Source: a virus. From it: 20,573 bases of DNA. How positions within the stretch are numbered: position 1 is the first letter of the stretch; every line of letters starts with the position of its first letter. The stretch lies in the IMG/VR virus record IMGVR_UViG_3300034061_001166, positions 1 through 20,573 of that record. The stretch is one strand, 5' to 3'. Under the pieces are notes generated by a model that was given only the letters and a program-made list of their open reading frames with translations, was not told the DNA's origin and searched no databases. The translations under genes and the position numbers were made by a program. Shown here in pieces: positions 6,551-20,573 of this stretch.

Positions 6551-6583
6551 TTACCGTTCATCAGTCCCATTTACCGTTCATCA
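6551..6583 (+). repeat. Tandem operator-like repeats TTACCGTTCATCA, copy A
   Basis: Two exact 13-bp copies at 6551-6563 and 6571-6583, 20 bp apart (about two helical turns). Both are preceded by AT. The same pair at the same spacing occurs at 16677-16709 ahead of another promoter. Likely binding sites for an activator or repressor. Confidence 0.8.
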
Positions 6584-6611
6584 CATTTTTTAGAAATTTA
6601 GTACATAATAC

Positions 6612-6642
6612 TTGGATAGTATGTAGATAAGTTGTAGTTTCG
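6612..6642 (+). promoter_or_regulatory. Bacteroidota-type promoter, copy A
   Basis: TTGG at 6612-6615, 19-bp spacer, then TAGTTTCG at 6635-6642, a one-mismatch version of TAnnTTTG. Spacing is identical to the promoter at 16727. The sequence immediately downstream (starting GTTATGTCATTGATTG) is identical for 24 bp in both copies. Likely drives the replication-to-terminase genes beginning at 6679. Confidence 0.7.
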
Positions 6643-6678
6643 TTATGTCATTGATTGATAACCAAAAACAAAACAACT

Positions 6679-6888
6679 ATGAAAAGTTACATTAAAAGAA
6701 CTAACAAGAAAACAAATGAAGAATTGTACTTTGTGGGTTATGTACCATTAGGTGCATTGGGTCAGGCAGAACATTGGATTCCTACACCACACGAAATTGA
6801 ACTATTTGAATCAAGTGATATATTCGTTAAATTGACTACTTCTACTGAAGGTAAATACAGATATCAATTAATATTAAAAACTTCATAA
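6679..6888 (+). CDS. First gene after promoter A, unknown small protein
   Basis: A 69-residue protein starting at ATG 6679. The in-frame TTG at 6655 lies within the conserved leader and was rejected. The leader AACCAAAAACAAAACAACT is A-rich without a Shine-Dalgarno sequence. The protein begins MKSYIKRTNKKTNEELYFV and continues with beta-like segments; no family was recognised. As the first gene of the transcript it could be an early takeover protein, which is only a guess from position. Confidence 0.65.
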   Translation: MKSYIKRTNKKTNEELYFVGYVPLGALGQAEHWIPTPHEIELFESSDIFVKLTTSTEGKYRYQLILKTS

Positions 6889-6908
6889 TAACCAAAAATA
6901 AAACAAAT

Positions 6909-7127
6909 ATGAAAAATTTACTAGAAAGATTAAAACCTGAAGTTTTAAACGAAATTGAAAAATCTGTTGGTAAATATCCATTAGCAGTTATGGAATTAAA
7001 ACAAGAACTAGAAAAGTTATATTATGTAATTGATGTTAGATATGGGGATATCGTACAATTAGATACTTATTTTCTATGTGCTTTTAATAGATTACCAAAT
7101 AATGGTTGGGAACATTTCATTAATTAA
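6909..7127 (+). CDS. Small protein, unknown
   Basis: A 72-residue protein with a helical N-terminal half (LLERLKPEVLNEIEKSVG) and a C-terminus containing FNRLPNNGWEHFIN. Its 5' leader and start are nearly the same as those of the preceding gene: 26 of 28 positions match. No motif recognised. Confidence 0.65.
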   Translation: MKNLLERLKPEVLNEIEKSVGKYPLAVMELKQELEKLYYVIDVRYGDIVQLDTYFLCAFNRLPNNGWEHFIN

Positions 7128-7137
7128 AAACAAACAT

Positions 7138-7413
7138 ATGCAAAAAGAACTACACACCTACACAGAACTATGTGCCAAATATGGTACAGAAACTATTGAT
7201 GCTTTAGATACTTTTATCTATTGGCAAATGCAATACAAAGGCAGAGTTAATGTAAATAATACATTAGTATCTGTAGAAGATTATTTTAAATTCTATAACA
7301 AAAAGCCAACCTTATTTGCAGGGTATGACTATGAAGATGATGCTTTTACATTCGGACAATGGATGCAGCATCAAGCAGAAATAGAATATAATAAAATGGC
7401 AGAAATTGAGTAA
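7138..7413 (+). CDS. Small acidic protein, unknown
   Basis: A 91-residue protein. ATG at 7138 follows the leader ATTAAAAACAAACAT; an earlier GTG at 7078 would overlap the upstream gene by 50 nt and lacks such a leader. The protein is acidic and aromatic-rich (YDYEDDAFTFGQWMQHQAE). No family recognised. It precedes the ERF gene by 18 nt. Confidence 0.65.
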   Translation: MQKELHTYTELCAKYGTETIDALDTFIYWQMQYKGRVNVNNTLVSVEDYFKFYNKKPTLFAGYDYEDDAFTFGQWMQHQAEIEYNKMAEIE

Positions 7414-7431
7414 CTTTAAAAAAAACAAACA

Positions 7432-7977
7432 ATGAACTTAGTAAAAATTCAAGCTGAATTAAAAGCACCTAAAAACCAAACAAATTCGTTTGGTAAGTAT
7501 AAGTACAGAAGCGCAGAAGATATTGTAGAAGCAGTAAAGCCTATTCTAAATAAATATGGAACTGCATTAGTTATAAGTGATGAAGTAGTACAGGTAGGTG
7601 ATAGAATCTACATTAAAGCTACTGCAACACTACTTGATGGAACTGATGACAGTATTAGTGTTAGCGGTTGGGCTAGGGAAGAAGAAGTTAAAAAAGGTAT
7701 GGATGCTGCACAGATTACAGGTAGTACATCTAGTTATGCTAGGAAGTATGCTTTAAATGGTTTATTTGCAATAGATGATACAAAGGATTCAGATGCTACA
7801 AATGAGCATAAGGATGAATTAGGTGAAGAAAAAAGATTGGAACTGATTGTACTACTAGAAAATACAACTTATGATAGTACAACCAAAGATTCAATAGCAA
7901 ATAGAATAAGCCAATATACTACCTTAGAGCAGTATAAGAAAGCATTAAAAAGTATTAACGAAAATCAAATTAAATAA
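7432..7977 (+). CDS. erf: ERF family single-strand annealing protein
   Basis: A 181-residue protein. Hallmarks of the ERF superfamily are visible: YKYRSAEDIVEAVKP at 23-37 and the core GMDAAQITGSTSSYARKYAL at 89-108 followed by DDTKDSD. ERF proteins bind single-stranded DNA ends and anneal homologous strands during phage recombination and genome circularisation. The C-terminal 50 residues form a helical tail. The leader AAAAAAAACAAACAATG is the typical start context here. It sits with the exonuclease, HTH protein and DnaA-like protein in the replication/recombination segment. Confidence 0.92.
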   Translation: MNLVKIQAELKAPKNQTNSFGKYKYRSAEDIVEAVKPILNKYGTALVISDEVVQVGDRIYIKATATLLDGTDDSISVSGWAREEEVKKGMDAAQITGSTSSYARKYALNGLFAIDDTKDSDATNEHKDELGEEKRLELIVLLENTTYDSTTKDSIANRISQYTTLEQYKKALKSINENQIK

Positions 7978-7978
7978 T

Positions 7979-8182
7979 ATGGAAAATAAATGGGGTATTA
8001 AAATAAGCAGAATTGCTTTTCCTGATGAAAGATTAGACTTTAATGAATGGGTTAAAAGGTTAAATGTATCTAGTCAATATGCTGATAAAAAGCTAATCCA
8101 CAATGCAGTATCTTTAAACAATCAATACAATTTCTCAAAAATTAAAAACAAACAGTATGAGCCAACAAACGCAGGTGCTTAA
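7979..8182 (+). CDS. Small protein, unknown
   Basis: A 67-residue protein starting 1 nt after the ERF stop. It contains RLDFNEWVKRLNVSSQYADK and a basic C-terminal part (FSKIKNKQYEPTNAGA). It overlaps the next gene by 26 nt. No motif recognised; context suggests a replication or recombination accessory. Confidence 0.6.
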   Translation: MENKWGIKISRIAFPDERLDFNEWVKRLNVSSQYADKKLIHNAVSLNNQYNFSKIKNKQYEPTNAGA

Positions 8183-8366
8183 TCACCTTAAAAAAGAACC
8201 ATTAACCCCATTAGTGGCATTAAGAAAGTATGGGACATTAAGACTAGCCGCATTAGTATTTAACCTTAAAGATGAAGGGCATAATATTATTACAGAAAGA
8301 GTAAACGTAGGTAGTAAAAAGAACCCTAAATTTGTAGCTAAATATTCACTAATTAAAAATAAATAA
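8157..8366 (+). CDS. Helix-turn-helix DNA-binding protein
   Basis: A 69-residue protein resembling short winged-helix proteins of phages (HTH_39-like). MSQQTQVLNHLKKEPLTPLV then ALRKYGTLRLAALVFNLKDE forms two helices and a recognition helix, followed by a basic beta wing (ITERVNVGSKKNPKFVAKY). ATG at 8157 has the leader ATTAAAAACAAACAGT. It could be a regulator and is one candidate for binding the operator repeats at 6551 and 16677, but nothing in the sequence links it to them. Confidence 0.75.
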   Translation: MSQQTQVLNHLKKEPLTPLVALRKYGTLRLAALVFNLKDEGHNIITERVNVGSKKNPKFVAKYSLIKNK

Positions 8367-8367
8367 A

Positions 8368-8562
8368 ATGGCAGAAGAAAAAAAGAAGTATGGTGCTTGG
8401 AAAAAAGAAACAACCAAAGGTATTGTAATCAGTTTTACGATAGAAGGTAAAAGATATTCAATGTGGGAAAACAAATACAAAGATAAAAATTCCCATCCTG
8501 ACTATCAGATTTATGAAGATTTATATGAAATGAAAAACGAAAACAAAGATTTAGAATTTTAA
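8368..8562 (+). CDS. Small charged protein, unknown
   Basis: A 64-residue, lysine- and glutamate-rich protein. The central part (TTKGIVISFTIEGKRYSMWE) looks like a beta-hairpin, followed by a DYQIYEDLYEMK helix. It starts 1 nt after the HTH gene. No family recognised. Confidence 0.6.
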   Translation: MAEEKKKYGAWKKETTKGIVISFTIEGKRYSMWENKYKDKNSHPDYQIYEDLYEMKNENKDLEF

Positions 8563-8564
8563 TT

Positions 8565-8993
8565 ATGACAAATAAAGAAGAAATATACGCAGCATATGTG
8601 ATGCAAAAAGATAGCTTTAATTACCTTCAAAATCTTTTAATTAAAGAAGGAGTTATTTTAGATGATGTTAGAATACCTGTTACTGATAAAACTATTAAGC
8701 CTGAAAAGATTGTTCAGTTAGTTGAAGAAGTATTTAGTACAGACATTAAAGCAAATAACAGAAAGCAAAAAACAATCTTTGGCAGACAGGCAGCAGCTTA
8801 TATGTTAAGAATGTATACAAGGTTAAGCCTATCAGAAATAACTTCATATATTGGAGTTAAAGACCATACAACAGTATTATATTCAATCACTAAGTGTAGG
8901 GATATAATGACTACTGAATATTGGTTCAAAGAAAAAATAGAACAACTTTGTGAGGAAATGGATAAATATGCTTTATATTTGTCTTCTAAATAA
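8565..8993 (+). CDS. DnaA domain IV-like DNA-binding protein
   Basis: A 142-residue protein. Residues about 64-115 match the C-terminal DNA-binding domain of DnaA: KQKTIFGRQAAAYMLRMYT (the analogue of the ARQ-x-AMYL helix), LSLSEITSYIG, and the signature DHTTVLYS at 100-107. No AAA+ ATPase domain is present; the N-terminal 60 residues are different. It may recognise DnaA-box-like sites at a phage origin or interfere with host DnaA. It is followed by a structured non-coding stretch and the DUF1376 replication gene. Confidence 0.88.
   Translation: MTNKEEIYAAYVMQKDSFNYLQNLLIKEGVILDDVRIPVTDKTIKPEKIVQLVEEVFSTDIKANNRKQKTIFGRQAAAYMLRMYTRLSLSEITSYIGVKDHTTVLYSITKCRDIMTTEYWFKEKIEQLCEEMDKYALYLSSK
8947..8981 (+). 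promoter_or_regulatory. Possible promoter for the replication leader
   Basis: TTTG at 8947-8950 and a perfect TATATTTG at 8974-8981, separated by 23 bp, inside the end of the DnaA-like gene. The spacing is at the upper limit of the reported Bacteroidota range. A start a few bases downstream would produce a transcript whose leader carries the 9004-9078 structure. Confidence 0.4.
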
Positions 8994-9003
8994 CAAAGAA
9001 CTA

Positions 9004-9078
9004 AGTCGCATTTAGTTTATAAACAATATTGGGGGGATGATGAACTGCTAATGCGACTAGCAGGGAATCTGAACCCCA
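9004..9078 (+). ncRNA. Pseudoknot-capable structured leader candidate
   Basis: This is the longest gap in the replication segment (8994-9088). CTGCTA (9045-9050) pairs with TAGCAG (9058-9063) around a 7-nt loop ATGCGAC (9051-9057). The loop is complementary to GTCGCAT at 9005-9011. TGGGG (9030-9034) pairs with CCCCA (9074-9078) around the hairpin. AGTCGCATTTAG and CTAATGCGACT form a competing helix that breaks the hairpin. It ends 10 nt before the ATG of the DUF1376 gene, as a cis-regulatory RNA would; no known riboswitch class was recognised. Confidence 0.5.
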
Positions 9079-9088
9079 TTTTTATTTT

Positions 9089-9724
9089 ATGTCAAAAGAC
9101 CCTGCATTTTTATTCTACCCTAATGATTACATAGGGGGAACTATGGGTATGACCTTTGAAGAAAAAGGTGCATATATGGAACTGCTAATGTTGCAATTTA
9201 ATAGAGGTCATATGACCACACATATGATAGGTCAAACGGTAGGTCAAATTTGGGTCAAGATACAGGACAAATTTGTAAAAGATGCTGATGGTCTATGGTA
9301 TAATGAAAGGTTAGATATGGAAAAAGAACGTAGGAAAACTTTCACGGAATCTAGGCGCAACAACGTTTTAGGTAAAAATCAACATACTAAAAACAAAGAA
9401 AAAGAAGTAGGTCATATGACCAAACATATGACAGGTCATATGGAAAATGTAAATATAAATGTAAATACTAAAGATTTATTTATAAATAATATAAAAGAGT
9501 ATCAAGAAATTTTAGGTGATTCATTTACAGAATTTGTTGACTATTGGTGCGAACCAAATAAAAATGGTAAATTGCGATATGAATTAGAAAAGTTCTTTGA
9601 TGTAAAAAGAAGAATTAATACTTGGACTAAAAACAAACTAAGATATGGAAATTCAAAAACACTTAACCCAACTGCCACAAGCAGGGAACGAATGGATGCC
9701 CTTGCAAAGTGGGTACATAGCTGA
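9089..9724 (+). CDS. DUF1376-type phage replication protein
   Basis: A 211-residue protein with an N-terminal DUF1376-like domain (PAFLFYPNDYIGGTMGMTFE then EKGAYMELLMLQF), found in phage replication initiator or replisome organiser proteins. The domain is interrupted and followed by tracts GHMTTHMIG (40-48) and GHMTKHMTGHM (108-118), then ENVNINVN, which are encoded by palindromic repeats and an AT-rich run. The C-terminal part (EYQEILGDSFTEFVDYWCEP) looks like the helicase-loader or DNA-binding end of such proteins. Probable role: origin recognition. It overlaps the next gene by 80 nt. Confidence 0.75.
   Translation: MSKDPAFLFYPNDYIGGTMGMTFEEKGAYMELLMLQFNRGHMTTHMIGQTVGQIWVKIQDKFVKDADGLWYNERLDMEKERRKTFTESRRNNVLGKNQHTKNKEKEVGHMTKHMTGHMENVNINVNTKDLFINNIKEYQEILGDSFTEFVDYWCEPNKNGKLRYELEKFFDVKRRINTWTKNKLRYGNSKTLNPTATSRERMDALAKWVHS
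9205..9498. other. Candidate replication origin with iterons and AT-rich tract
   Basis: Inside the replication gene, the palindrome GGTCATATGACC occurs at 9206-9217 and 9410-9421. Related AGGTCA or GGTCA words occur at 9229, 9241, 9253 and 9433, and CATATG words at 9221 and 9425. Directly downstream, 9443-9498 has only 6 G/C in 56 bases. Iterons followed by an AT-rich unwinding region inside the initiator gene is the lambda ori plan. Confidence 0.5.
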
Positions 9725-10385
9725 TAATGAAATAGCTGAAGCATTCAAAGGGAACAAACTAAATCTAGTTTCACCTGTTACATTGAAGGAAAATTTAGCT
9801 TACATCTTTACTTTGCTAGGATTCACAAAATATCCTGATACACAGGAAATGGTTGTGATTGAAGATTTCATCAGAACTAGCTACCCATTGTTCACAGTTG
9901 AAGAATTCAGGTTAGCATTCAAGATGGCAGTACAGGGTAAGTTAGATTGTAGCACAGAACACTATGAAAAGTTCAGTCCAAAATTTATTGGTCAGGTTAT
10001 GTCAGCCTACACAAAAAAAGCACTAGAAGTAAGAAAAATGATAAAACCGATTATAAACGAAATTGAGCCGCCAAAATTATCAGATGATGACATTGTATCA
10101 TTCACACAGAAAGAATGGCTAGAATCGCCTAAAAATGACTTTAACAGGGTATTTAATGCTAACAAGGTATTCGCAATATTACTAAAGCAGGGCAAATTAA
10201 AATTTGAGGAACACGAAATGTTACAAATTATCAGGATGGTTAGGGAAGATAACCTAATGAAAATGAATAAATTAATTGGATTAGATGCAAAAGAGTTTAG
10301 TAAAAAACTAAAAGATGATGATTTTATTGATACACAATGTAAAAAATTAGCACTTGTCAAATACTTTGAGGGTCTTTCAGGTTAA
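9645..10385 (+). CDS. Replication-associated protein, unknown
   Basis: A 246-residue, mostly helical protein. ATG at 9645 is inside the upstream gene but has the leader CTAAAAACAAACTAAGAT; later in-frame ATG at 9696 is possible. Segments include LKENLAYIFTLLGFTKYPDT, FRLAFKMAVQGKL and FSPKFIGQVMSAYTKKAL. The last part (HEMLQIIRMVREDNLMKMN) is helical. Following a DUF1376 protein, it may play the helicase-loader or partner role, but there is no visible Walker motif and no recognised family. Confidence 0.7.
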   Translation: MEIQKHLTQLPQAGNEWMPLQSGYIADNEIAEAFKGNKLNLVSPVTLKENLAYIFTLLGFTKYPDTQEMVVIEDFIRTSYPLFTVEEFRLAFKMAVQGKLDCSTEHYEKFSPKFIGQVMSAYTKKALEVRKMIKPIINEIEPPKLSDDDIVSFTQKEWLESPKNDFNRVFNANKVFAILLKQGKLKFEEHEMLQIIRMVREDNLMKMNKLIGLDAKEFSKKLKDDDFIDTQCKKLALVKYFEGLSG

Positions 10386-10536
10386 ATATACCTACTGTGG
10401 TAGTTTAAAATATTGCTACACGATTAACTTTTTTGACTGTTTCCCAACTAGACAGGATGCCATTGATGGAACTAATAGACTTAAATTTAAAAAACAATTT
10501 TATGATTTACTATGGACATATCGGCTAACGACCTAA
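10354..10536 (+). CDS. Small protein, start uncertain
   Basis: An open frame of up to 60 residues with no ATG near its 5' end; TTG at 10354 or 10366 are possible starts. The later start gives MRVFQVKYTYCGSLKYCYTI, which begins directly in a beta strand. The remainder, FFDCFPTRQDAIDGTNRLKF, looks like an alpha/beta fold. It overlaps the upstream gene by 20-32 nt and the nuclease gene by 25 nt. Amino-acid composition looks like real coding DNA; function unknown. Confidence 0.5.
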   Translation: MSNTLRVFQVKYTYCGSLKYCYTINFFDCFPTRQDAIDGTNRLKFKKQFYDLLWTYRLTT

Positions 10537-10826
10537 CTAAATGGGCAAAGAAAAATTTAGAATATATTGGGTACAGGCTTAATAGAGTAAACAATATACC
10601 ATACGGGAAACGTAAAGGAACAATACAAAAAGGATGGGCAGACCTGCAAGGTTACACATCAGAAGGAAGGTATGTTGCAGTTGAAGTAAAAAAAATAGGT
10701 GATAAGTTAAGTCTTGAACAAAAAGAAAGATTAGAAGATATCCATAATTGTCAGGGATTAGTATATATTTGTACTGAAAAAGATAATCAGCCTGTACTAA
10801 TTGAATGGATAAAAATAAAATTATAG
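10512..10826 (+). CDS. VRR-NUC-like PD-(D/E)xK nuclease
   Basis: A 104-residue protein with the core of virus-type replication-repair nucleases: GWADLQGY (Asp44), VAVEVKK (Glu58, Lys60) and SLEQKERLEDI (Gln70). This D-x13-E-x-K pattern with downstream Q is characteristic of VRR-NUC proteins, thought to act on Holliday junctions or other branched DNA. Length matches single-domain phage members. It overlaps the upstream gene by 25 nt and the sigma-like gene by 22 nt. It probably works with ERF in recombination or before packaging. Confidence 0.85.
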   Translation: MDISANDLTKWAKKNLEYIGYRLNRVNNIPYGKRKGTIQKGWADLQGYTSEGRYVAVEVKKIGDKLSLEQKERLEDIHNCQGLVYICTEKDNQPVLIEWIKIKL

Positions 10827-11287
10827 AGCAATATTGGCTTAATGATGAAGTCAATCAGGCATTTGCAAAGATGCAGCCTGAAGAATTGCAATATGATTTA
10901 AAGGTAGAAGTATTTATGGTTCTGTTGGAAATGGATGATGCGAAGCTAGGTGGACTATACGAAAGAAATGAAATTAGATTTTACATAGTTAGAACTATGC
11001 TAAATATGATTAAATCTGATAGAAGCCAATTTTGGAAAAAGTACAGGAACTATACAGAATTTAATGGTAAGGAAGTTGCAGAGGTAGAAAACAATAGTGT
11101 GATAGATGTAATGGAACAGGGAATTGAGAAACTGCATTGGTATCAAAAGGAAATATTAAGGCTATACACTTTTGATTTTAATAAGAACGCAAAGGAATTA
11201 AGCAGACAGACAGGAATACCTTATATGTCAATCATAAGAACTTTAAAACAAACTAAAACTGAACTAAAAAAACACATACGGAAATGA
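10805..11287 (+). CDS. Sigma-70-like transcription factor
   Basis: A 160-residue protein. Residues about 28-82 resemble sigma region 2 (LKVEVFMVLLEMD, then FYIVRTMLNMIKSDRSQFWK), and 105-160 resemble region 4 with an HTH (LHWYQKEILRLYTFDF, then AKELSRQTGIPYMSIIRTLK). An acidic linker joins the two halves. A phage-encoded sigma-like protein could redirect host RNA polymerase to phage promoters for later genes. It overlaps the nuclease gene by 22 nt and its TGA overlaps the next ATG. The similarity is to divergent ECF-type factors, so the role is inferred. Confidence 0.7.
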   Translation: MDKNKIIEQYWLNDEVNQAFAKMQPEELQYDLKVEVFMVLLEMDDAKLGGLYERNEIRFYIVRTMLNMIKSDRSQFWKKYRNYTEFNGKEVAEVENNSVIDVMEQGIEKLHWYQKEILRLYTFDFNKNAKELSRQTGIPYMSIIRTLKQTKTELKKHIRK

Positions 11288-11523
11288 TTCAAATAATCTT
11301 AACAAGTATCTGTGCATCATTATTTTTTAATACTATCCACAACCTACATCGTAAATGGGGAATCAACTTCAAACCTTTCAGTTGCGGAAGTTGCTTGGCT
11401 TCATGGATTGCAGTTGTATTATATTTCACACCTGAACTGATTTTAAACATAGCTAGTGTTTTATTCATATCAGGTTTTTTGGCATCTATTGTAGAAACTT
11501 TAATTTATAAGATATGGAACTAG
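11284..11523 (+). CDS. Small membrane protein with CxxC motif
   Basis: A 79-residue protein with hydrophobic segments at about residues 3-17, 38-50 and 53-74. The conserved-looking element FKPFSCGSCLASWIAVVLY contains Cys34 and Cys37. Similar K-P-F-x-C-x-x-C-L-x-x-W segments occur in small phage membrane proteins of Bacteroidota, role unknown. It starts in an ATGA overlap with the sigma-like gene and overlaps the next gene by 10 nt. Confidence 0.65.
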   Translation: MIQIILTSICASLFFNTIHNLHRKWGINFKPFSCGSCLASWIAVVLYFTPELILNIASVLFISGFLASIVETLIYKIWN

Positions 11524-11807
11524 AACATAGGCAATATTTAAAAGAGCATTATAACAACTATGAAACTGCACAAAGTGGGTTTATTAGAAACTTAGATTTA
11601 AGTATAATGAAAATGTATGAGCATATCTACAGAACATACATAGACCCTAATTTCATTTTAACTATTTGGTGTGGTAACTGTAGAATGGATATGGTGTTAA
11701 GACTATATAAGCATTATGAAAAAGTATTAAATCAAGATGATTTATTGATGCAAACACAAATTATAGAACCAAAAAAGCGTGGTCGCAAACCAAAGACAAA
11801 TGGCTAA
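11514..11807 (+). CDS. Small protein with C-terminal AT-hook
   Basis: A 97-residue, largely helical protein containing WCGNC (Cys53, Cys56) and ending in a basic tail PKKRGRKPKTNG. RGRKP at 89-93 is an AT-hook-like minor-groove DNA-binding motif, which suits an AT-rich genome. It overlaps the acyltransferase gene by 8 nt. Possible DNA-binding or small packaging/replication accessory; no family assigned. Confidence 0.65.
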   Translation: MELEHRQYLKEHYNNYETAQSGFIRNLDLSIMKMYEHIYRTYIDPNFILTIWCGNCRMDMVLRLYKHYEKVLNQDDLLMQTQIIEPKKRGRKPKTNG

Positions 11808-12282
11808 TTTTATACATCCAACTGCAATAATAGGGGACAATGTTGTACTAGGGGACAACAATTACATAGGTGCTTATTGTATTATAGGCGACCCTGCAGA
11901 ACATAAAAAGTATTGGGGTAAGCAAAAAGGTAATGTAATCATAGGGGATAATAATATTATTACAGGATTTGTTACAATAGATGCAGGTACTGAAGATATT
12001 ACTTATATTCAGGATAATTGTTTTATAATGAAACACGCACACATAGGACACGATTGTACAATTTTTAATAATGTTACAATAAGTTGCGGTGCAAAGATTG
12101 GTGGACATTCTATTATAGAAGAAAATTCAAACATAGGATTAAACGCAGTATTGCATCAGTTCACACATATTGAAGAAGGTTGTATGATTGGAGCAAGTGC
12201 ATTTATAAAAGGTAAGACAGAACCATTTACAAAATATGCAGGAGTACCTGCAAGAAAATTAGGAGAAAATAAACCTAGATGA
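11800..12282 (+). CDS. LpxA-like left-handed beta-helix acyltransferase
   Basis: A 160-residue protein from ATG at 11800; a GTG at 11779 would add seven residues in front of the natural start. Hexapeptide-repeat sequence runs from FIHPTAIIGDNVVLGDNNYIG onward. The catalytic-region motif AHIGHDC (His81, His84) corresponds to AHIAHDC of LpxA, which contains the catalytic histidine, and VLHQF (119-121) matches the AVHQF element. It lacks the long helical C-terminal domain of full LpxA. Predicted role: O- or N-acyl or acetyl transfer to a nucleotide sugar or glycan. With two glycosyltransferases behind it, it probably modifies a surface or virion sugar. Confidence 0.85.
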   Translation: MANFIHPTAIIGDNVVLGDNNYIGAYCIIGDPAEHKKYWGKQKGNVIIGDNNIITGFVTIDAGTEDITYIQDNCFIMKHAHIGHDCTIFNNVTISCGAKIGGHSIIEENSNIGLNAVLHQFTHIEEGCMIGASAFIKGKTEPFTKYAGVPARKLGENKPR

Positions 12283-12860
12283 ACGCAGTAATATATTTAA
12301 ACTATCAAAATAGAAACATTGAAACTTTGTTTCATAACATTAAAAATGCAGGTAAGCATATAGACTTAATCAGCATTGTAGATGAAACAGGCATAGCTTA
12401 TGCAATCAATAAAGGATTGATGCAATTAAATAATTTTGACTATGTTACGATTATGGGAAATGATATACTAGAGCCTGATAATTGGTTACAGAGTAGAAAT
12501 GAATTTATGCAAGATACTACGATTGGAATATGCTCAACACCATTAGCAGGATTTGATGGTGATTCATTAGATTTAATTGGGAACTTTACAATATCAAAAG
12601 AAACAATAAACAGGCTAGGTGCATTTAATGAAGAACTAGACCCATACGGAGCAATAGACTTAGACTACTGTACTAGATGCAGGGCAGCAGGATTGCATAC
12701 AAAGTTCATACCATTAACTAAAGCTACTCATATTGAACAGAATGGTAGTGATGTTTATGGATATAATAAAATGGATTTAGTTAAAAAGACTTGGGACTTG
12801 CACACTAAAAACGTATCTGATTATTCAAATGGAACTAAAGCATATTATATTCCTTTATGA
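12279..12860 (+). CDS. GT2-type glycosyltransferase
   Basis: A 193-residue protein of GT-A fold. Visible elements are GIAYAINKGL (38-47), the metal/nucleotide-binding-type GNDILEPDNWL (60-70) and the acceptor-side GAFNEELDPYGAIDLDYCTR (114-133) followed by AAGLHTKFIPLTKATH. These match family 2 glycosyltransferases, though the canonical DxD is replaced by ND. No membrane segment is present. It is shorter than typical GT2 proteins. ATGA overlap with both neighbours ties it to the acyltransferase and the second glycosyltransferase. Confidence 0.85.
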   Translation: MNAVIYLNYQNRNIETLFHNIKNAGKHIDLISIVDETGIAYAINKGLMQLNNFDYVTIMGNDILEPDNWLQSRNEFMQDTTIGICSTPLAGFDGDSLDLIGNFTISKETINRLGAFNEELDPYGAIDLDYCTRCRAAGLHTKFIPLTKATHIEQNGSDVYGYNKMDLVKKTWDLHTKNVSDYSNGTKAYYIPL

Positions 12861-13867
12861 GAATACTAGCAATTACAAACAAATTTAGTGGGGTAGGATA
12901 TCATAGGATTATGATGCCTTTGGTTAATATGCGCAAAGACTATTGTATGATAACCGATACAATTAATGAAGCAGTATTTGATAATAACTATGACATTGTT
13001 TTATTTAATAGGTTTTTAGCTTCAACAGATGCTAAACTATTAGTAAAGATGAAGATAAAATATAAATTCAAACTGATAGTAGATAATGATGACTATTGGA
13101 TTTTACCACCTTCGCACGTTCTTGCACAAAGATATAGAGAAAGTAATATTGCTGAAATCATTACAGAGTATATGAAGGTGGCAGACCTATGCACCTGTAC
13201 GCACGAAAGATTGGCTGAAGAAATATATAAGTTAAATCCTAATGTAGAAATAATTCCTAATGCTTTACCATATGGTGAAGAACAATTTCAGGATAATAAA
13301 TTAGAATCTGATTTGGTTAGATTATTTTGGGCAGGTTCAGGTACTCACGTTCCTGACTTAGACATTCTTAGGAATCCAATGAAGAAGATTAATTTCCCTG
13401 TAAGAACAGTTATTGCAGGTTATAATCTAGGGGAAAAACATTTATGGGATAGAATGATTGGAGTATTTACAAACGGATTAAAGCTGAACCCAACTATTTA
13501 TGACTATGCAGATGTTAGTAATTATATGGGTGCTTATGCTGATTCTGATATAAGTATCATTCCTTTAGTAGAAAATAAGTTTGGTGCTATGAAATCAAAC
13601 CTGAAGGTATTAGAGACTGCAGCAAAGAAAAACCCTGCTATAGTTAGCAACGTACACCCTTATAAGGATATGCCTGTATGCTATGTAAACAATCAACAGG
13701 ATTGGTACAAATGGATTAAGCTACTGACATTTGATGAAGCAGCTAGGATTGAATATGGGCAGAAGCTATTTGATTACTGCAATACTAACTTTAACCTGCA
13801 CACCATAAATAATAAAAGATTTGCTATTTATAATAAATTGATAGGTAATGCCGATATACAAATGTAG
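12857..13867 (+). CDS. GT4-like (GT-B) glycosyltransferase
   Basis: A 336-residue protein. The N-terminal motif GVGYHRIMMPL (12-22) is typical of phage-encoded GT-B proteins. VDNDDYW (75-81), CTHERLAEEIYKLNP (114-128) and IPNAL (133-137) form the middle, and the donor-binding half has LFWAGSGTHVPDLDIL and KFGAMKSNLKVLETAA, like the E-x7-E region of GT4 enzymes. No signal peptide. It overlaps the next gene by 20 nt. Likely transfers a sugar to a glycan or protein; substrate unknown. Confidence 0.85.
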   Translation: MRILAITNKFSGVGYHRIMMPLVNMRKDYCMITDTINEAVFDNNYDIVLFNRFLASTDAKLLVKMKIKYKFKLIVDNDDYWILPPSHVLAQRYRESNIAEIITEYMKVADLCTCTHERLAEEIYKLNPNVEIIPNALPYGEEQFQDNKLESDLVRLFWAGSGTHVPDLDILRNPMKKINFPVRTVIAGYNLGEKHLWDRMIGVFTNGLKLNPTIYDYADVSNYMGAYADSDISIIPLVENKFGAMKSNLKVLETAAKKNPAIVSNVHPYKDMPVCYVNNQQDWYKWIKLLTFDEAARIEYGQKLFDYCNTNFNLHTINNKRFAIYNKLIGNADIQM

Positions 13868-14267
13868 CAATGGTAAGTACAGAATAGGTACAGGTAGTTG
13901 CATATATGACACAGAAGAAAAAGCTGCTAAAGTATGGGCAGCAATTATAGCTAGTGGTAAATATGAAGAAACTTATAATGACTATCCTGAATCAGCTAGT
14001 AACAATGCAAAGAGGGCATTAAAATGGGCAGAAGAAAACGGATGGGGTGAATGTGGAACTGCAGTAGGTAAAGCTAGGGCAAACCAATTAGCGAATAAAG
14101 AAAACATATCTAGGGATACCATAGCTAGGATGGCATCATTCAAAAGGCATCAACAAAGTAAAGATGTACCATACTCTGAAGGATGTGGTGGGTTAATGTG
14201 GGATGCTTGGGGTGGTACTTCAGGCATTGAATGGGCAATAAATAAGCTAAAGCAAATAGATAAATAA
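13848..14267 (+). CDS. Conserved phage protein with GTAVGKARANQLAN domain
   Basis: A 139-residue protein in two parts. The N-terminus (YKCSNGKYRIGTGSCIYDTE) resembles short beta modules seen in phage head and protease proteins. The second part, YNDYPESASNNAKRALKWAE then CGTAVGKARANQLANKE and ISRDTIARMASFKRHQQSKD, followed by WDAWGGTSGIEWA, resembles a domain I recall from phage structural and protease proteins, function unknown. It overlaps the glycosyltransferase gene by 20 nt and opens the packaging region. Confidence 0.7.
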   Translation: MPIYKCSNGKYRIGTGSCIYDTEEKAAKVWAAIIASGKYEETYNDYPESASNNAKRALKWAEENGWGECGTAVGKARANQLANKENISRDTIARMASFKRHQQSKDVPYSEGCGGLMWDAWGGTSGIEWAINKLKQIDK

Positions 14268-14449
14268 TGGAATACCATATTCAATTTGGCAGATTCAGAA
14301 TATCATTAGGGGTATTAACAGAAACAATACAATTAGGTATTTCAATAGGGTATTCAGTAGATGAATTTGCACAATTACATAAGAGTTTAAACATAGGATT
14401 TGTATTCGTATCTTTAAACTTTATAATAATGAATGAAGAAACACACTAA
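14267..14449 (+). CDS. Small beta-rich protein, unknown
   Basis: A 60-residue protein starting by TAATG overlap with the previous gene. Alternating strands such as IQFGRFRISLGVLTETIQLG and hydrophobic IGFVFVSLNFIIM suggest a beta-sheet fold or a membrane-associated end. It overlaps the HNH gene by 17 nt. No family recognised. Confidence 0.55.
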   Translation: MEYHIQFGRFRISLGVLTETIQLGISIGYSVDEFAQLHKSLNIGFVFVSLNFIIMNEETH

Positions 14450-14690
14450 ACTATATTTAGATTACTTTGGGTATGGCATAGAAGATTTTATCCCTTGTGA
14501 ATCCTGTGGTGCAAAGGCAGTTGACATACACCATATAGAAGCTAGGGGAATGGGCGGTGATAAAAAGGCAGACAATATAAATAACCTGATGGCATTATGT
14601 AGGCAATGTCATTTAGTTATGGGGGATACTAAGACACATATGGAATATTTAAAAAGCAAACATAAAGAGAAATTAAATGGCAAAAGGTAA
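14433..14690 (+). CDS. HNH endonuclease
   Basis: An 85-residue protein with a complete HNH module: CESC (22-25), DIHHIEARGMGGDKKADNIN (His33, His34) and NLMALCRQCH (Cys56, Cys59, His60). Phage HNH proteins beside terminase genes, as in HK97, stimulate DNA cutting during packaging, and this gene is three genes before the terminase small subunit. Homing activity is less likely because the gene is embedded in overlapping phage genes. It overlaps both neighbours. Confidence 0.9.
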   Translation: MKKHTKLYLDYFGYGIEDFIPCESCGAKAVDIHHIEARGMGGDKKADNINNLMALCRQCHLVMGDTKTHMEYLKSKHKEKLNGKR

Positions 14691-14799
14691 AAGCGATTCA
14701 TCAAAAGTTTCATTTGGTAAGCGCAAAAGAGGACAGGCAAAAAAGTCTTATAACAAACATACACCCAAACCAAAACCATCAAGGGGACAAGGCAAATGA
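14677..14799 (+). CDS. 40-residue very basic protein
   Basis: ATG at 14677 overlaps the HNH gene by 14 nt, and TGA overlaps the next ATG by 4 nt. The product begins MAKGKSDSSKVSFGKRKRGQ and ends PKPKPSRGQGK, with many lysines and arginines and no hydrophobic core. Short proteins of this layout (FGKRKRGxAKKSY) occur in other Bacteroidota phages. Likely a nucleic-acid-binding peptide; exact role unknown. Confidence 0.6.
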   Translation: MAKGKSDSSKVSFGKRKRGQAKKSYNKHTPKPKPSRGQGK

Positions 14800-15149
14800 T
14801 AATACTACCTGCACAAATAGAAGGCTTAACATCTAGAAAGGATAAAACCATTAAAGTTACCTTTGGCACACAGGAACTATCACCTGCTGATGCTGCACAG
14901 GTATTCCAACTAAATCAAAGATTCTGTTACATAGCTATCAAAGAAGAATCATTTCAACAGGATGAACTAGATAATCTAGATAGTATTAAGACAGACTTAG
15001 AATCAAATAAGACCCCATCACAAAGATTAAGGGGTATTTTATTTATAAACTATCAGCAAAACAACGAGGGGTACAAAGACTTTAGCACATATTACATAGC
15101 AAAGATGGAAGTATTATGTGAGCATTTTAAATCTAAATTAGATAAATAA
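14796..15149 (+). CDS. Conserved phage protein near terminase, unknown
   Basis: A 117-residue protein beginning MIILPAQIEGLTSRKDKTIK and containing VTFGTQELSPADAAQVFQLN. The N-terminal half looks beta-rich; the C-terminal half is helical (YYIAKMEVLCEHFKSKLDK). It starts in an ATGA overlap. Similar sequences precede terminase genes in Bacteroidota phages, so a packaging or recombination accessory role is plausible. Confidence 0.65.
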   Translation: MIILPAQIEGLTSRKDKTIKVTFGTQELSPADAAQVFQLNQRFCYIAIKEESFQQDELDNLDSIKTDLESNKTPSQRLRGILFINYQQNNEGYKDFSTYYIAKMEVLCEHFKSKLDK

Positions 15150-15165
15150 ACAGAACAATAACAGA

Positions 15166-15525
15166 ATGAGCAAAGAACATTTGATACCATTTGTAAAAGG
15201 TCAGTCAGGTAATCCCAATGGCAGACCTAGAAAATATGTCAGCCTATTGAAGGAACAGGGATACAAGCTATCAGAAATAAACGATAGCATTCAGGCTTTA
15301 ATGTCTATGGATGAAGAAGAACTTAAATCAGTTAGCACAAATGATAAAGCAACTGTACTAGAAAAGACAATAGCAAAAGCCATATTAAAATCTATGAGCA
15401 ATGGCAGCTTGTATTCTTTGGATACTTTGTTAACTAGAGTATATGGAAAACCAAAGGAGCAGATGGATATTAAATCAGATAATAAAATAGAGGTTATCTT
15501 TGTAGATGGTAAAACCATTTTATAA
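15166..15525 (+). CDS. terS: Terminase small subunit-like (DUF5681-type)
   Basis: A 119-residue protein with the signature FVKGQSGNPNGRPRKY near the N-terminus (9-24), found in DUF5681-type phage proteins, followed by helical segments (NDKATVLEKTIAKAILKSMS) and an acidic end. It ends in a TAATG overlap with the large terminase, the usual place for the DNA-recognition small subunit. Similarity to classical HTH small terminases is not evident, so the assignment rests on motif and position. Confidence 0.75.
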   Translation: MSKEHLIPFVKGQSGNPNGRPRKYVSLLKEQGYKLSEINDSIQALMSMDEEELKSVSTNDKATVLEKTIAKAILKSMSNGSLYSLDTLLTRVYGKPKEQMDIKSDNKIEVIFVDGKTIL

Positions 15526-16676
15526 TGCAGATATTCTTACCTAATCCACACGCAAACCAACAAAGAATCCTAGAATGTGATAAGCGTTTCAGGGTGGTGA
15601 TGTGTGGTCGTAGATTTGGTAAGTCAGAACTATCACAGGTACTTTCTGTTACATATGCAGTTAAAGGTCTTTCTGTTGCTTATATTACCCCTACTTATGG
15701 ATTAGCGAAGGTTTTCTTCAGTAAGCTGACAGAATCCCTAGAATTGCCTAAAAACAAGTCTGATTTAAAAATAGACTTCCCTAATGGCGGACAGGTAGAA
15801 TTCTTTACAGGTGAAAGATTAGATAATCTAAGAGGTAGAAAATTCCATTTGGTTATTGTAGATGAAGCATCCTTTATCCCTGACCTAGAAGCAGGATGGC
15901 AAAATAGTATTAGACCAACCCTAACTGACTATAAAGGGAAGGCAGTATTCCTATCTACCCCTAGAGGGAAAAACTATTTCTATAGCCTGTTTATGAAAGA
16001 TGGTGAACAGGATTGGGCATCCTTTAAATTCACTAGCTATGATAACCCATTCATAGACCCAAAAGAAATTGATGAAGCTAGGATGCAACTGCCAAACGTA
16101 GTGTTTGAACAGGAGTATATGGCTAATCCTTCAGAGAATAGCGCAAACCCATTTGGTAATAAATTTATTCAAGATTGCGTTAAGCCAATTAGCAACCAAC
16201 AAATAGTTGCATTTGGTATTGACCTTGCTAAGTCTGTAGACCATACAGTTATCATAGGTCTTGATAATGCAGGGAATGTGGCTTATTTTGACAGGTATCA
16301 AATGGATTGGCATAACACTAAGGAGAATATAAAGAGGCTGCCTAAATGCCCTATATTGGTGGATAGTACAGGTGTAGGCGACCCTATCCTAGAGGATTTA
16401 CAAAGGGAAGGTATTGCAATAGAAGGTCTAAAGTTCACGAGTTCAAGTAAGCAGCAACTTATGGAAGGTCTTGCAACTGCCATACAACAACAAAAGATAG
16501 GATTCCCTGAAGGCGCAATAACAAATGAACTGCAGGTCTTTGAATATCAGTTCACGGCTAATGGGGTTAAGTACTCTGCACCATCAGGCTTTCACGATGA
16601 CTGCGTTATGGCATTGGCTTTAGCTTGGAATAATTTCAATATGAAAAGGGGTAATGGCAGGTATTCTATGATGTAA
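15525..16676 (+). CDS. terL: Terminase large subunit
   Basis: A 383-residue protein. The ATPase half has the Walker A motif GRRFGKS (28-34), Walker B LVIVDEA (109-115) and coupling motif STPRG (144-148). The nuclease half has an RNase H fold with GIDLAKSVDH (Asp233), VDSTGVGDP (Asp280) and HDDCVMALALAW (Asp358, Asp359). All catalytic residues are present, so it should power packaging and cut concatemers. Length is a little below the average for the family. It is the last gene of the first transcription block; a second promoter module starts right after its stop at 16676. Confidence 0.95.
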   Translation: MQIFLPNPHANQQRILECDKRFRVVMCGRRFGKSELSQVLSVTYAVKGLSVAYITPTYGLAKVFFSKLTESLELPKNKSDLKIDFPNGGQVEFFTGERLDNLRGRKFHLVIVDEASFIPDLEAGWQNSIRPTLTDYKGKAVFLSTPRGKNYFYSLFMKDGEQDWASFKFTSYDNPFIDPKEIDEARMQLPNVVFEQEYMANPSENSANPFGNKFIQDCVKPISNQQIVAFGIDLAKSVDHTVIIGLDNAGNVAYFDRYQMDWHNTKENIKRLPKCPILVDSTGVGDPILEDLQREGIAIEGLKFTSSSKQQLMEGLATAIQQQKIGFPEGAITNELQVFEYQFTANGVKYSAPSGFHDDCVMALALAWNNFNMKRGNGRYSMM

Positions 16677-16709
16677 TTACCGTTCATCAGATTTATTTAC
16701 CGTTCATCA
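16677..16709 (+). repeat. Tandem operator-like repeats TTACCGTTCATCA, copy B
   Basis: Two exact copies at 16677-16689 and 16697-16709, again 20 bp apart, starting at the base after the terminase stop codon. In both regions the first copy is followed by G and the second by C. The same pair occurs at 6551-6583. Confidence 0.8.
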
Positions 16710-16726: not shown

Positions 16727-16757
16727 TTGGATAATGTGTACAGAGGTTGTATATTTG
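16727..16757 (+). promoter_or_regulatory. Bacteroidota-type promoter, copy B
   Basis: TTGG at 16727-16730, 19-bp spacer, then a perfect TAnnTTTG box, TATATTTG at 16750-16757. The 24 bp from 16757 are identical to those downstream of promoter A. The distance from the operator repeats is 17 bp here and 28 bp in copy A, a difference of about one helical turn. It should drive the genes from 16795. Confidence 0.8.
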
Positions 16758-16794
16758 TTATGTCATTGATTGATAACCAACAAAAACCAAAGTT

Positions 16795-17088
16795 ATGAAA
16801 AACCAAAAATCACCTGAAGAACTTTATGAGTATTTAAAAAGCCACAAAGGTTATGAAGTTGCAAGAGCATCTTTTCTTAGACAATTAGAGTGGGAAGGTA
16901 ATAGTCCATTAGAAAGCGCAATGGCTAATAGCTATGCAATGTTAATGGTTGCAAATGGTGGAAACAAAGAAGAAGCAGTTAAATTAATCTTGAAACTTTA
17001 TCAGCCTGAAAATTTAGTTAAGCTGATGGAGTTGGCTGAAAAGAATCAGGAAATCCATTCTGAATTAATTAATGAAATTTTAAATTAA
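16795..17088 (+). CDS. First gene after promoter B, unknown
   Basis: A 97-residue helical protein (SPEELYEYLKSHKGYEVARA, then AVKLILKLYQPENLVKLMEL). It lies 37 nt downstream of the -7 box with an A-rich leader (CCAACAAAAACCAAAGTT). No family recognised. Being first behind the shared promoter, it is the positional counterpart of the gene at 6679, but the two proteins do not look similar. Confidence 0.65.
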   Translation: MKNQKSPEELYEYLKSHKGYEVARASFLRQLEWEGNSPLESAMANSYAMLMVANGGNKEEAVKLILKLYQPENLVKLMELAEKNQEIHSELINEILN

Positions 17089-17092
17089 TATT

Positions 17093-17170
17093 ATGAAAAA
17101 AGAAAACACACAAGCCGTAATTATTCTTATATTCGCATTCTTAGTAGTTGCGATATATCAGAACATTTAA
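17093..17170 (+). CDS. 25-residue membrane microprotein
   Basis: ATG at 17093 lies 4 nt after the previous stop. The peptide is MKKENTQ followed by one hydrophobic span (AVIILIFAFLVVAIY) and QNI. Short, but its clean charge-then-span layout and position between genes favour a real product. Confidence 0.45.
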   Translation: MKKENTQAVIILIFAFLVVAIYQNI

Positions 17171-17178
17171 GAGCATAG

Positions 17179-17250
17179 ACCACCTCAAGAAAATTTTTAA
17201 TATTAAAAAATAACAAAGGTAGTAATTTGGGTACTTGGGGTGGTTTTTTT
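17179..17250 (+). terminator. Terminator or attenuator hairpin with T-run
   Basis: ACCACCTCAAG (17179-17189) pairs with CTTGGGGTGGT (17234-17244) with one G-U pair, followed by T7 (17244-17250). The 44-nt loop contains a 16-bp palindrome, TTTTTAATATTAAAAA (17194-17209). The next ATG is only 13 nt beyond the T-run, with no clear promoter between, so it may regulate read-through into the genes downstream. Confidence 0.6.
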
Positions 17251-17262
17251 AAAACAAACACA

Positions 17263-17511
17263 ATGAAAGGAAACAACTACACAATTAGTCAGGAATACTT
17301 AATAAGACTTGAAAACGAATGTCTTATTGAAAAGATAGCTAAACTTGAAAAAGAACTTGCAGAAAAAGATTTAGCTATTAAAATGCTTAAAAAAGATTTA
17401 GAACCATTTTTAACAGAGCAACAAAAGAGACAGGACTACATAAATAGAAGGGATGCAATAGATTTAAAACTTGCTCAAATGATGGCTAATTTTCATAATC
17501 AAAAAATATAA
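17263..17511 (+). CDS. Coiled-coil protein, unknown
   Basis: An 82-residue protein from ATG at 17263 with leader AAAACAAACACA; TTG at 17227 lies inside the terminator-like stem and was rejected. The sequence is a long charged helix (IEKIAKLEKELAEKDLAIKM) with heptad spacing, then FLTEQQKRQDYINRRDAIDL. No known domain. It begins directly after a terminator-like hairpin. Confidence 0.6.
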   Translation: MKGNNYTISQEYLIRLENECLIEKIAKLEKELAEKDLAIKMLKKDLEPFLTEQQKRQDYINRRDAIDLKLAQMMANFHNQKI

Positions 17512-17512
17512 T

Positions 17513-17737
17513 ATGAAAACAGCAATGCAAATAGCAGTAGAAAGCTATAAAAATGATGGGGTATCTTTTACGGATTGGTTTATTGATAATTATGAAATGT
17601 TACTTGAAAAAGAAAAAGAGCAGATAGTTACCGCTTTTGAAGTTGGGTATAAGTCCTGCGATATAGATGAAGCATTTGAAATTAATAGAAAGTTAGCAAG
17701 TGGAGAATTGCATTATAATAAAACTTATAACATATGA
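17513..17737 (+). CDS. Small acidic protein, unknown
   Basis: A 74-residue protein (AMQIAVESYKNDGVSFTDWF then EMLLEKEKEQIVTAFEVGYK). It looks alpha-helical and acidic, with no membrane segment. It starts 1 nt after the coiled-coil gene and ends in an ATGA overlap with a membrane microprotein. No family recognised. Confidence 0.6.
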   Translation: MKTAMQIAVESYKNDGVSFTDWFIDNYEMLLEKEKEQIVTAFEVGYKSCDIDEAFEINRKLASGELHYNKTYNI

Positions 17738-17847
17738 AAGCATTAGAATTATTAAAGTTTATGTTTATTTCAGTTCCTTTGGCTTGTTTAGTATATATAA
17801 TAGCAGTATCTTTATCTAAAATCAAGCAGCTATGTGGGACAAAATAA
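17734..17847 (+). CDS. 37-residue membrane microprotein
   Basis: ATG at 17734 overlaps the previous stop (ATGA) and the reading frame ends inside the start of the next gene (16-nt overlap). It encodes MKALELLKFMF, a hydrophobic span (ISVPLACLVYIIAVSL) and a basic tail (SKIKQLCGTK). The two overlaps favour a translated gene. Function unknown. Confidence 0.5.
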   Translation: MKALELLKFMFISVPLACLVYIIAVSLSKIKQLCGTK

Positions 17848-18503
17848 ACGTATGGCAATACCAACAGATTTACAATGCTTTAAATACAAAGGAGAAAGAT
17901 GCAACTGATTTAGACCTAGAAGTCAAATTAGTAGGGATAGTCAACAATATGACTGAAATGCAAATAGACAGTCTACCTTTGAATGAATATAAAGAGTTGA
18001 GCAAAACCATATCTTTCTTAAATGAACCGATAGAAGGCACACCTAAAAAGCATATATGCATATCATATAATAAGAGGTACAAGATTAATTACGATGTCAG
18101 TAAGATGCCATTCGCTAGGTATATAGAAAGCAAGGTATTTAGTGAGGATTTATACGGTAACCTGCATAAGTTAGCAGCTACAATGGTAATACCACAGAAG
18201 CGAAAGTTTGGTATTTGGTTTAATGAAAAGTACGATGCTAGTAAGCATCAGGAATATTCAGATGATATGTTAAATGCAAAGTTTGTAGATGTTTACCATT
18301 CGTTGGTTTTTTTTTATCAAGTATACAGAAATTGGATAGAAGTTTCAAAGGGTTATTTGGAGAAGAAGATGGTGGAAGCAGGGATGCAGGAAGCACAGGC
18401 GAAAGAGGTGGTTCAAAGTTTATGCATTATTTTGGATGGCAATATAGCACCAAACTTATTGCCGAGTACGAAAATTGCACAGTTAGCGAAGCCTATGAAT
18501 TAA
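17832..18503 (+). CDS. Probable tail assembly chaperone-like protein
   Basis: A 223-residue protein. It begins MWDKINVWQYQQIYNALNTK and contains LVGIVNNMTEMQIDSLPLNE, followed by KTISFLNEPIEGTPKKHICI and a helical C-terminal half. The mid-size acidic/helical layout and the overlapping second frame behind it recall the G part of G/GT tail chaperones. No tail-tube gene is visible beside it, so the call rests on layout and overlap and is uncertain. A T9 run at 18307-18315 lies in codons V-F-F-Y, at residues 159-162. It overlaps the upstream microprotein gene by 16 nt. Confidence 0.5.
   Translation: MWDKINVWQYQQIYNALNTKEKDATDLDLEVKLVGIVNNMTEMQIDSLPLNEYKELSKTISFLNEPIEGTPKKHICISYNKRYKINYDVSKMPFARYIESKVFSEDLYGNLHKLAATMVIPQKRKFGIWFNEKYDASKHQEYSDDMLNAKFVDVYHSLVFFYQVYRNWIEVSKGYLEKKMVEAGMQEAQAKEVVQSLCIILDGNIAPNLLPSTKIAQLAKPMN
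18308..18314 (+). other. Possible -1 frameshift slippery site (T TTT TTT)
   Basis: The T-run 18307-18315 contains T TTT TTT in the codon phase needed for -1 slippage (GTT TTT TTT TAT). The -1 frame is open from 18266 to 18586 and would add 90 residues after residue 161, giving a 251-residue fusion. No strong downstream structure was seen. Confidence 0.35.
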
Positions 18504-18586
18504 GTACAATAGAATGTTTAAACATATTAGCATATCTAAAAGCTAAGACAGATTACGACAATGAGCAGATAAAAAAAGTAAGATAG
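18422..18586 (+). CDS. Overlapping small protein, possible T-like chaperone part
   Basis: A 54-residue protein from ATG at 18422, in the -1 frame relative to the upstream gene and overlapping it by 82 nt. It begins MHYFGWQYSTKLIAEYENCT and continues VSEAYELSTIECLNILAYLK, a compact helical sequence that looks like true coding DNA. The frame is open further upstream; TTG at 18332 or entry by frameshift at 18308 are alternatives, but the upstream extension is glycine-rich (EEDGGSRDAGSTGERGG). Position behind a chaperone-like gene suggests the T-equivalent domain that binds the tape-measure protein. Confidence 0.55.
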   Translation: MHYFGWQYSTKLIAEYENCTVSEAYELSTIECLNILAYLKAKTDYDNEQIKKVR

Positions 18587-18613
18587 TTTTCATAGTTGGA
18601 TTTTTTGGTTAAC

Positions 18614-18649
18614 ATCCCCATCCCTAAAAAGGTGGGGATAGTTATTTTA
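18614..18649 (+). terminator. Weak terminator-like hairpin
   Basis: ATCCCCA (18614-18620) pairs with TGGGGAT (18633-18639), with two inner C-G pairs possible in the loop, followed by AGTTATTTTA. The stem is strong but the U-tract is broken. It sits in the 86-nt gap before the gene at 18673; no good promoter was found in that gap. Confidence 0.45.
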
Positions 18650-18672
18650 AGCCTGTTATACTATTTATTAGT

Positions 18673-19341
18673 ATGAGCATATCCAAAGCACAAGCACAGG
18701 CAATAGCAGATGGCTTCCTAAATACACTAGGCGAACAACCTATGAAAGAGGGAGAAATGCCTGTTGCTGAAAGGTTGCTAAAGGATTTTGGTGCAGACTT
18801 TATTAAAACTGCACAGGCTAATCTTAGGGCAAATGGGTCTATTGCTTCAGGTGCTATTGATGATATCAGAATGTACTTTAGTAAATTTGGTACAACCTAT
18901 AGTATTTCTTTAGGCTACCCAAAATCAGAAAAGGCTTCTAAGTATTGGGACTTTATAAATAAGGGTGTAAAGGGAACTAAAAATATTAAGGCTGATTCAA
19001 AAACACCTTATAAATTTAACCCATCTAAAAAAAGCATTCCTATATCAGCAGTACAGGGATGGTTAGGGTATAACAAATTAAAAGCAACTGCAGTAAAGCC
19101 ATATAGAAAATTAGGGGTAGAAGCTAAAGCAATAGATGCTAAAAAGTCTTTAGCCTATGTTGTAGCTAGGTCTATACATAGAAAAGGTATTAGGTCTACA
19201 CATTATTTTGACAATGCTCAAAAAGAGGTATTCGGTAAAAACTTCTATGAGGTAATGGAAGCTGCGCTAGGTAAAGATATTCAAATTAAAATAAGACAAA
19301 TCGGTAAAGAAATAAACAATGGCAATAACAATTCAAAGTAG
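18673..19341 (+). CDS. Probable head-tail connector or virion protein
   Basis: A 222-residue protein with a helical N-terminus (AQAQAIADGFLNTLGEQPMK, then LLKDFGADFIKTAQANLRAN), a central beta region (GTTYSISLGYPKSEKASKYW), KSIPISAVQGWLGYNKLKA and a C-terminal RSIHRKGIRSTHYFDNAQKE. The layout recalls gp10-like neck/tail-completion proteins of siphophages, which also combine a strand-rich core with Y-W-x-F-x-N-x-G elements (here YWDFINKGVKG). Assignment is by resemblance and neighbours. It overlaps the next gene by 23 nt. Confidence 0.5.
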   Translation: MSISKAQAQAIADGFLNTLGEQPMKEGEMPVAERLLKDFGADFIKTAQANLRANGSIASGAIDDIRMYFSKFGTTYSISLGYPKSEKASKYWDFINKGVKGTKNIKADSKTPYKFNPSKKSIPISAVQGWLGYNKLKATAVKPYRKLGVEAKAIDAKKSLAYVVARSIHRKGIRSTHYFDNAQKEVFGKNFYEVMEAALGKDIQIKIRQIGKEINNGNNNSK

Positions 19342-20545: not shown

Positions 20546-20573
20546 TGGTTAGTACAGAAATATACATAGAAGA
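20545..20573 (+). CDS. Start of next gene, truncated by window
   Basis: ATG at 20545 overlaps the previous stop by 1 nt and the frame MVSTEIYIE runs off the right edge. The short beginning and its coupling to the preceding structural gene suggest another virion protein, but too little is visible to assign it. Confidence 0.5.

Follow-up and report, generated by a model that had tools for sequence, protein, structure and literature searches.

The locus described here raises the question of which regulator acts on a pair of short direct repeats that stands upstream of two promoters in a viral genome, and whether that regulator is supplied by the phage or by its host. The DNA analyzed, referred to below as the window, is a virus record of 20,573 bp and is a fragment that stops at 20573. 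All features of the two promoter modules lie on the plus strand and were located by direct reading, supplemented for the -7 elements by the phased distances described below. Copy A begins with two copies of the 13-mer TTACCGTTCATCA (6551-6563 and 6571-6583; block 6551..6583), which are spaced 20 bp start to start, leaving a gap of 7 bp. These are followed by a -33 element TTGG (within CTTGG, 6612..6615), the -7 element TAGTTTCG (6635..6642), located 51 bp past the operator, and a 24-bp block, GTTATGTCATTGATTGATAACCAA (6642..6665). Copy B has the same arrangement: two 13-mers TTACCGTTCATCA (16677-16689 and 16697-16709; block 16677..16709), the -33 element TTGG (within TTTGG, 16727..16730), the -7 element TATATTTG (16750..16757), located 40 bp past the operator, and an identical 24-bp block (16757..16780). 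In both modules, N19 separates TTGG from the -7 box, which makes each a Bacteroidota promoter of the form TTGG-N19-TAnnTTyG, and the operator lies 28 bp (copy A) or 17 bp (copy B) from the -33 element. The reading thereby confirms the exact repeat pairs, the promoter-like elements, the shared 24-bp block, and the two distances given in a preliminary description of this DNA. The same description took the two sites for a co-regulated promoter pair, a reading that is supported insofar as the two do look co-regulated.

A search of both strands of the window found only the four copies of TTACCGTTCATCA with fewer than 3 mismatches. With uniform composition, 4^13 arithmetic gives an expectation of ∼0.0006 exact copies for the 41 kb of the two strands; four are present, so the 13-mer pairs are not due to chance. 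The published consensus for the primary sigma factor of Bacteroidota is TAnnTTTG at -7 and TTTG at -33 (PMC7366714). The -7 and -33 elements of copy B fit a promoter of this type, and the copy A box TAGTTTCG, which differs from TAnnTTTG by one mismatch, was found to fit it as well. The first base of the 24-bp block is also the final base of the -7 box. The block contains inverted arms, GTTAT...ATAAC, and possibly serves as a second operator or as a leader element of the mRNA. Where the window has this block, relatives have other short palindromes (TTTGATATATCAAA).

The gene context gives each promoter a block of its own on the plus strand. The block headed by promoter A (6679..16676) contains replication-to-terminase genes, which encode an ERF recombinase (7432), an HTH_39 protein (8157), a DnaA_C-like protein (8565), a DUF1376, primosomal-protein-like protein (9089), a VRR-NUC protein (10512), an ECF-sigma-like protein (10805-11287), a hexapeptide transferase (11779) accompanied by glycosyltransferase-like genes, an HNH protein (14433), and, at the end of the block, the large terminase (15525-16676). 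The first base of the copy B operator is the base directly after the terminase stop codon. Promoter B heads a block (16795..20573) of small genes followed by structural-module genes common to relatives, at which point the window ends. The earlier proposal that the two sites split the genome into two transcription blocks thus holds for the window, but complete relatives carry two to four operator sites per genome. In these relatives the sites stand at the head of the replication-to-terminase block, of the stretch after the terminase, and of a small opposite-strand cassette within the structural region. Two further repeats were seen in the window. The large tail-fibre-like gene (3-2303) carries tandem 51-bp repeats of the NTFIGxNAGxNNTTG type at 918-1259, and palindromic words of the AGGTCATATGACC type recur at 9205-9239 and 9409-9443 in the DUF1376 gene, where they possibly represent an origin or a peptide repeat (GHMTxHM).

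A scan of viral sequences found the exact 13-mer pair with its 7-bp gap in 43 stretches. A search for an 11-mer pair that left the gap free between 0 and 30 bp matched 74 viral stretches, and all 74 had the 20-bp period. The absence of such pairs from related phages, which the preliminary description had named as one finding that would speak against its reading, is therefore not borne out. A degenerate form, ACCRYTYAT-N11-ACCRYTYATCRCAA, was derived from weaker sites in the same phages and occurs in at least 120 viral stretches. Lengthening the period to 21 bp left 9 matches, shortening it to 19 bp left 1, and reversing the pattern likewise left 1. Among ∼85,000 bacterial and archaeal species genomes, the 11-mer pair with a 0-30 bp gap gave 18 matches, none of them at 20 bp; on inspection, these proved to be short tandem repeats or repeated coding words and were rejected as operators. 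The operator was not found in named phages, the nearest of which by portal protein are the flavobacterial Nonlabens phages P12024S/L (∼24% identity). A portal-profile search for prophages matched 8 Bacteroidia genomes, with the operator at none of those loci, and a literature search for the 13-mer returned no occurrence in a relevant context. Four joined carrier contigs have terminal direct repeats (G017, G030, G037, and G023). The last of these, a 46,374-bp viral contig from L071 whose terminal repeat measures 144 bp, represents a distant phage. Its gene set is different, yet it has two operators, and a TAnnTTT-like box follows each of them at 31 bp.

The position of the operator relative to the promoter was analyzed after grouping the downstream sequences at 68% identity, which gave 38 families (44 with a finer grouping). 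An exact TAnnTTTG lies 30-32, 39-42, 50-53, or 60-63 bp past the 33-bp block in 32 of the 38 families, with windows chosen after inspection of the first site set; the distances themselves are 30-32, 39-41, 50-53, or 61 bp, and in most families 31 bp. Shuffled sequences predict 0.4 families with a phased -7 box, with a maximum of 4 in 2000 trials, and the phasing gives a Rayleigh R of 0.86-0.90 at periods of 10-10.5 bp. Because the distances fall in stepped windows, the operator is helically phased to the promoter, and it lies upstream of the -35/-33 region. This phasing across 38 families also upholds the suggestion that the unequal distances of copies A and B preserve the binding face. The two promoter classes differ in their -33 element. 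In the 44-family grouping, none of the 28 families with a site 30-32 bp from the -7 box has a -33 TTTG (2.2 expected), while 11 of the 16 families with a site 39-61 bp away have one (1.9 expected). Loss of the -33 TTTG when the site is near and retention when it is far is the signature of an activator, and the pattern fits one that may be able to replace the -33 element from the nearest position.

The form of the operator points to the LytTR family of response regulators. The site consists of the 9-mer ACCGTTCAT repeated with an 11-nt spacer, the period being 20 bp in all 74 stretches. Published LytTR operators consist of 9-11 nt direct repeats with 11-13 nt spacers (PMC4847170), and those of CoxC are set 18-21 bp apart (PMC11347149). 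The half-site core CCGTTCATC matches letter for letter rhlI-ABS, a published site of the LytTR-type response regulator AlgR (PMC4064291). Like the operators of AlgR, AgrA, YpdB, and CoxC, the phage operators lie upstream of the -35 region and present two 9-11 nt direct repeats separated by roughly two helical turns. However, the period of known LytTR operators is often 21-22 bp, whereas the phage period of 20 bp is almost invariant. The phage operators also differ in that they occur in genomes without a LytTR gene and at four phased distances in two promoter classes.

The match to the AlgR core and to the repeat geometry predicts sites of the same form at chromosomal LytTR genes. A strict degenerate pattern gave 16 matches in 395 Bacteroidota genomes, versus 2 for the reversed control. 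In three genomes (G136, G376, and G337), the site precedes a histidine kinase gene by ∼120-150 bp, and a LytTR response regulator gene comes next after the kinase gene. The Pfam LytTR domain was detected in the regulators of G376 (E 8e-22) and G337 (E 4e-22); the G136 and G376 operons are orthologous and were counted as one case. Among named models, BtsR matches the G376 regulator best, at a score below the cut-off. E. coli BtsR is a LytTR-family response regulator that serves here for comparison, and the likeness of its half-site is only a lead. The G376 operon is followed by genes for a secreted T9SS-type protein and a TonB-type protein, which are possible native targets.

The operons most similar to these were then retrieved with a profile of the G136/G376/G337-type regulators, by protein sequence alone. 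Five more (G230, G415, G089, G085, and G170) carry ACC-type 20-bp pairs upstream of the kinase gene and/or directly after the regulator gene; in G230 the upstream pair has a period of 21 bp and the downstream pair one of 20 bp. The chromosomal LytTR operons carry pairs of the ACCRYTYAT half-site. In the eight whole genomes concerned, searched with up to 3 mismatches, the best or near-best sites were at the LytS/LytTR locus. Across 20 less similar operons, taken without motif selection, the best ACC-type pair had a spacing of exactly 20 bp in 4.4 cases, where 1.06 would be expected (0/300 shuffles). A two-mismatch scan of the 395 Bacteroidota genomes gave a modest excess over the reversed control, from which no regulon could be discerned alone. 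In a second sample, of 395 Bacteroidia genomes, the pattern matched in 9 genomes and the control gave 4 matches, and none of the pattern matches was at a LytTR operon; the chromosomal link therefore rests on one regulator group and a weaker trend elsewhere. A Spirosoma match by a LytTR gene (L174) lies downstream of the gene with 2 mismatches and was left out of the count. The chromosomal sites (ACCGCTTATCGCAA) and the phage sites (ACCGTTCATCACAA) differ in detail, and the chromosomes may not be those of the host. Among orthologous LytS/LytTR operons on Bacteroidota chromosomes (L214, L219, L229, and L230), an operator of 20 or 21 bp is conserved ahead of the kinase gene, and a second 20-bp pair stands just past the regulator gene.

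An activator could instead be encoded by the phage. The ECF-sigma-like protein (10805), the DnaA_C-like protein (8565), the HTH_39 protein (8157), or an unrecognized small protein would bind the repeats and activate the phage promoters in the manner of a late activator. We consider this unlikely. In its favor, the operators occur in viruses, whereas the species genomes have no exact pair, and several operator-carrying lineages have the sigma-like protein. The kinship of this protein to ECF sigma factors is distant (a match to TIGR02937 at E 1.8e-6, short of the cut-off), and no relative was found in the PDB. DnaA_C was found in 15 of 50 operator carriers, and the 8565 protein was rejected as the binder for this reason. 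The HTH_39 and sigma-like proteins, which the preliminary description had proposed as binders, are both absent from some long carriers; the sigma-like protein, moreover, is only 16-22% identical between lineages that have identical 13-mers. Neither is likely to bind the sites. No candidate DNA-binding protein common to all operator carriers was found, many of the carriers being fragments. The -7 boxes are, in addition, of the host primary-sigma type, and a phage activator leaves the 20-bp pairs at chromosomal LytTR operons unexplained. A shared host factor would explain an invariant site in diverged phages better than phage proteins. Diverged counterparts of the sigma-like protein occur in other phage lineages, and the protein may serve phage promoters that form a set of their own. 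As for a LytTR regulator carried by the phages themselves, the Pfam LytTR domain was not detected among 100 operator-carrying contigs, nor did a custom LytTR profile, run without filters, find one in the joined contigs, including the four with terminal direct repeats. A viral scan for the regulator gave two distant receiver-domain matches only. Since most carriers are fragments, a LytTR gene may be missed, and a phage LytTR-like protein could possibly lie outside the reach of the profiles.

It is quite improbable that a host LytTR regulator binds the sites and represses the phage promoters, either as host control or as a brake kept by the phage. Some LytTR proteins do repress, such as CoxC, whose site overlaps the -35 region (PMC11347149), but the phage sites always lie upstream of the -33 and -7 elements in phased steps and never across the -7 box, and loss of the -33 element next to a near site fits activation. 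That the pairs function outside transcription, as replication iterons or packaging signals, is hardly credible. They are direct repeats with a two-turn period, and a DnaA_C-like gene is nearby; an iteron system, however, would be a repeat array at an origin beside a rep gene, independent of promoters. Here, a site has two repeats and a genome has several sites. A promoter lies downstream of each site at a phased distance, and one site on the opposite strand heads an opposite-strand gene cassette.

Taken together, the sequence comparisons lead us to consider it likely that the phage promoters are activated by a host LytTR response regulator of a LytS/LytTR two-component system. As the phages have no detectable LytTR gene, the host is the most likely source of the regulator. 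Each 33-bp block would be an activator site at which two regulator subunits bind two half-sites on one face of the DNA, two helical turns apart. The bound regulator would recruit host RNA polymerase containing the primary Bacteroidota sigma factor to the downstream TAnnTTTG promoter. With its site ∼3 turns away from the -7 box, the regulator would replace the -33 element in a class II-like manner; from 4, 5, or 6 turns, as predicted for copies A (51 bp) and B (40 bp), it would act beside the -33 TTTG in a class I-like manner. One host system would then turn on both the replication/packaging block (copy A) and the block that follows (copy B). The sequences themselves show the repeat pattern with its spacing and phasing, two classes of promoter, the occurrence across viruses, the lack of a detected LytTR gene in operator-carrying contigs, and like sites at chromosomal LytS/LytTR operons; from these we infer binding, activation, a regulator native to the true host, and the signal that it would relay. 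Whether, in several diverged lineages of Bacteroidota phages, a single type of host LytS/LytTR system controls the main transcription units, with a lytic programme that reads a host metabolic or density signal rather than a phage-encoded timer, we judge to be evenly balanced.

Activators of the RinA/ArpU type are late transcription activators of Gram-positive phages and are a lead only. Such systems resemble the window in having a small sigma-like protein and an operator beside the terminase gene, but differ in that no phage activator common to all carriers was found here and the promoters are of the host primary-sigma type. A parallel to the proposed regulation is PhoB, which controls the stx2 promoter of prophage BP-933W (PMC3978041). 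There, a host two-component response regulator activates phage genes by binding to direct repeats at a phage promoter; however, PhoB controls one prophage promoter, whereas the promoters described here are repeated, head the main gene blocks in many lineages, and would depend on another regulator family.

The 38 promoter families, with four phased distances and two classes, provide a natural data set on activator geometry for the little-studied RNA polymerase of Bacteroidota, and from the operator one can predict the site to which a group of LytTR regulators binds, a group in which we found no studied member. If the proposed regulation is true, a host two-component system would be one of the main switches by which a large assemblage of uncultured phages controls its gene expression, tying phage development to a bacterial sensory signal. 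The operator would then be a searchable marker for such phages, and loss or change of the sensor would be predicted to alter phage susceptibility.
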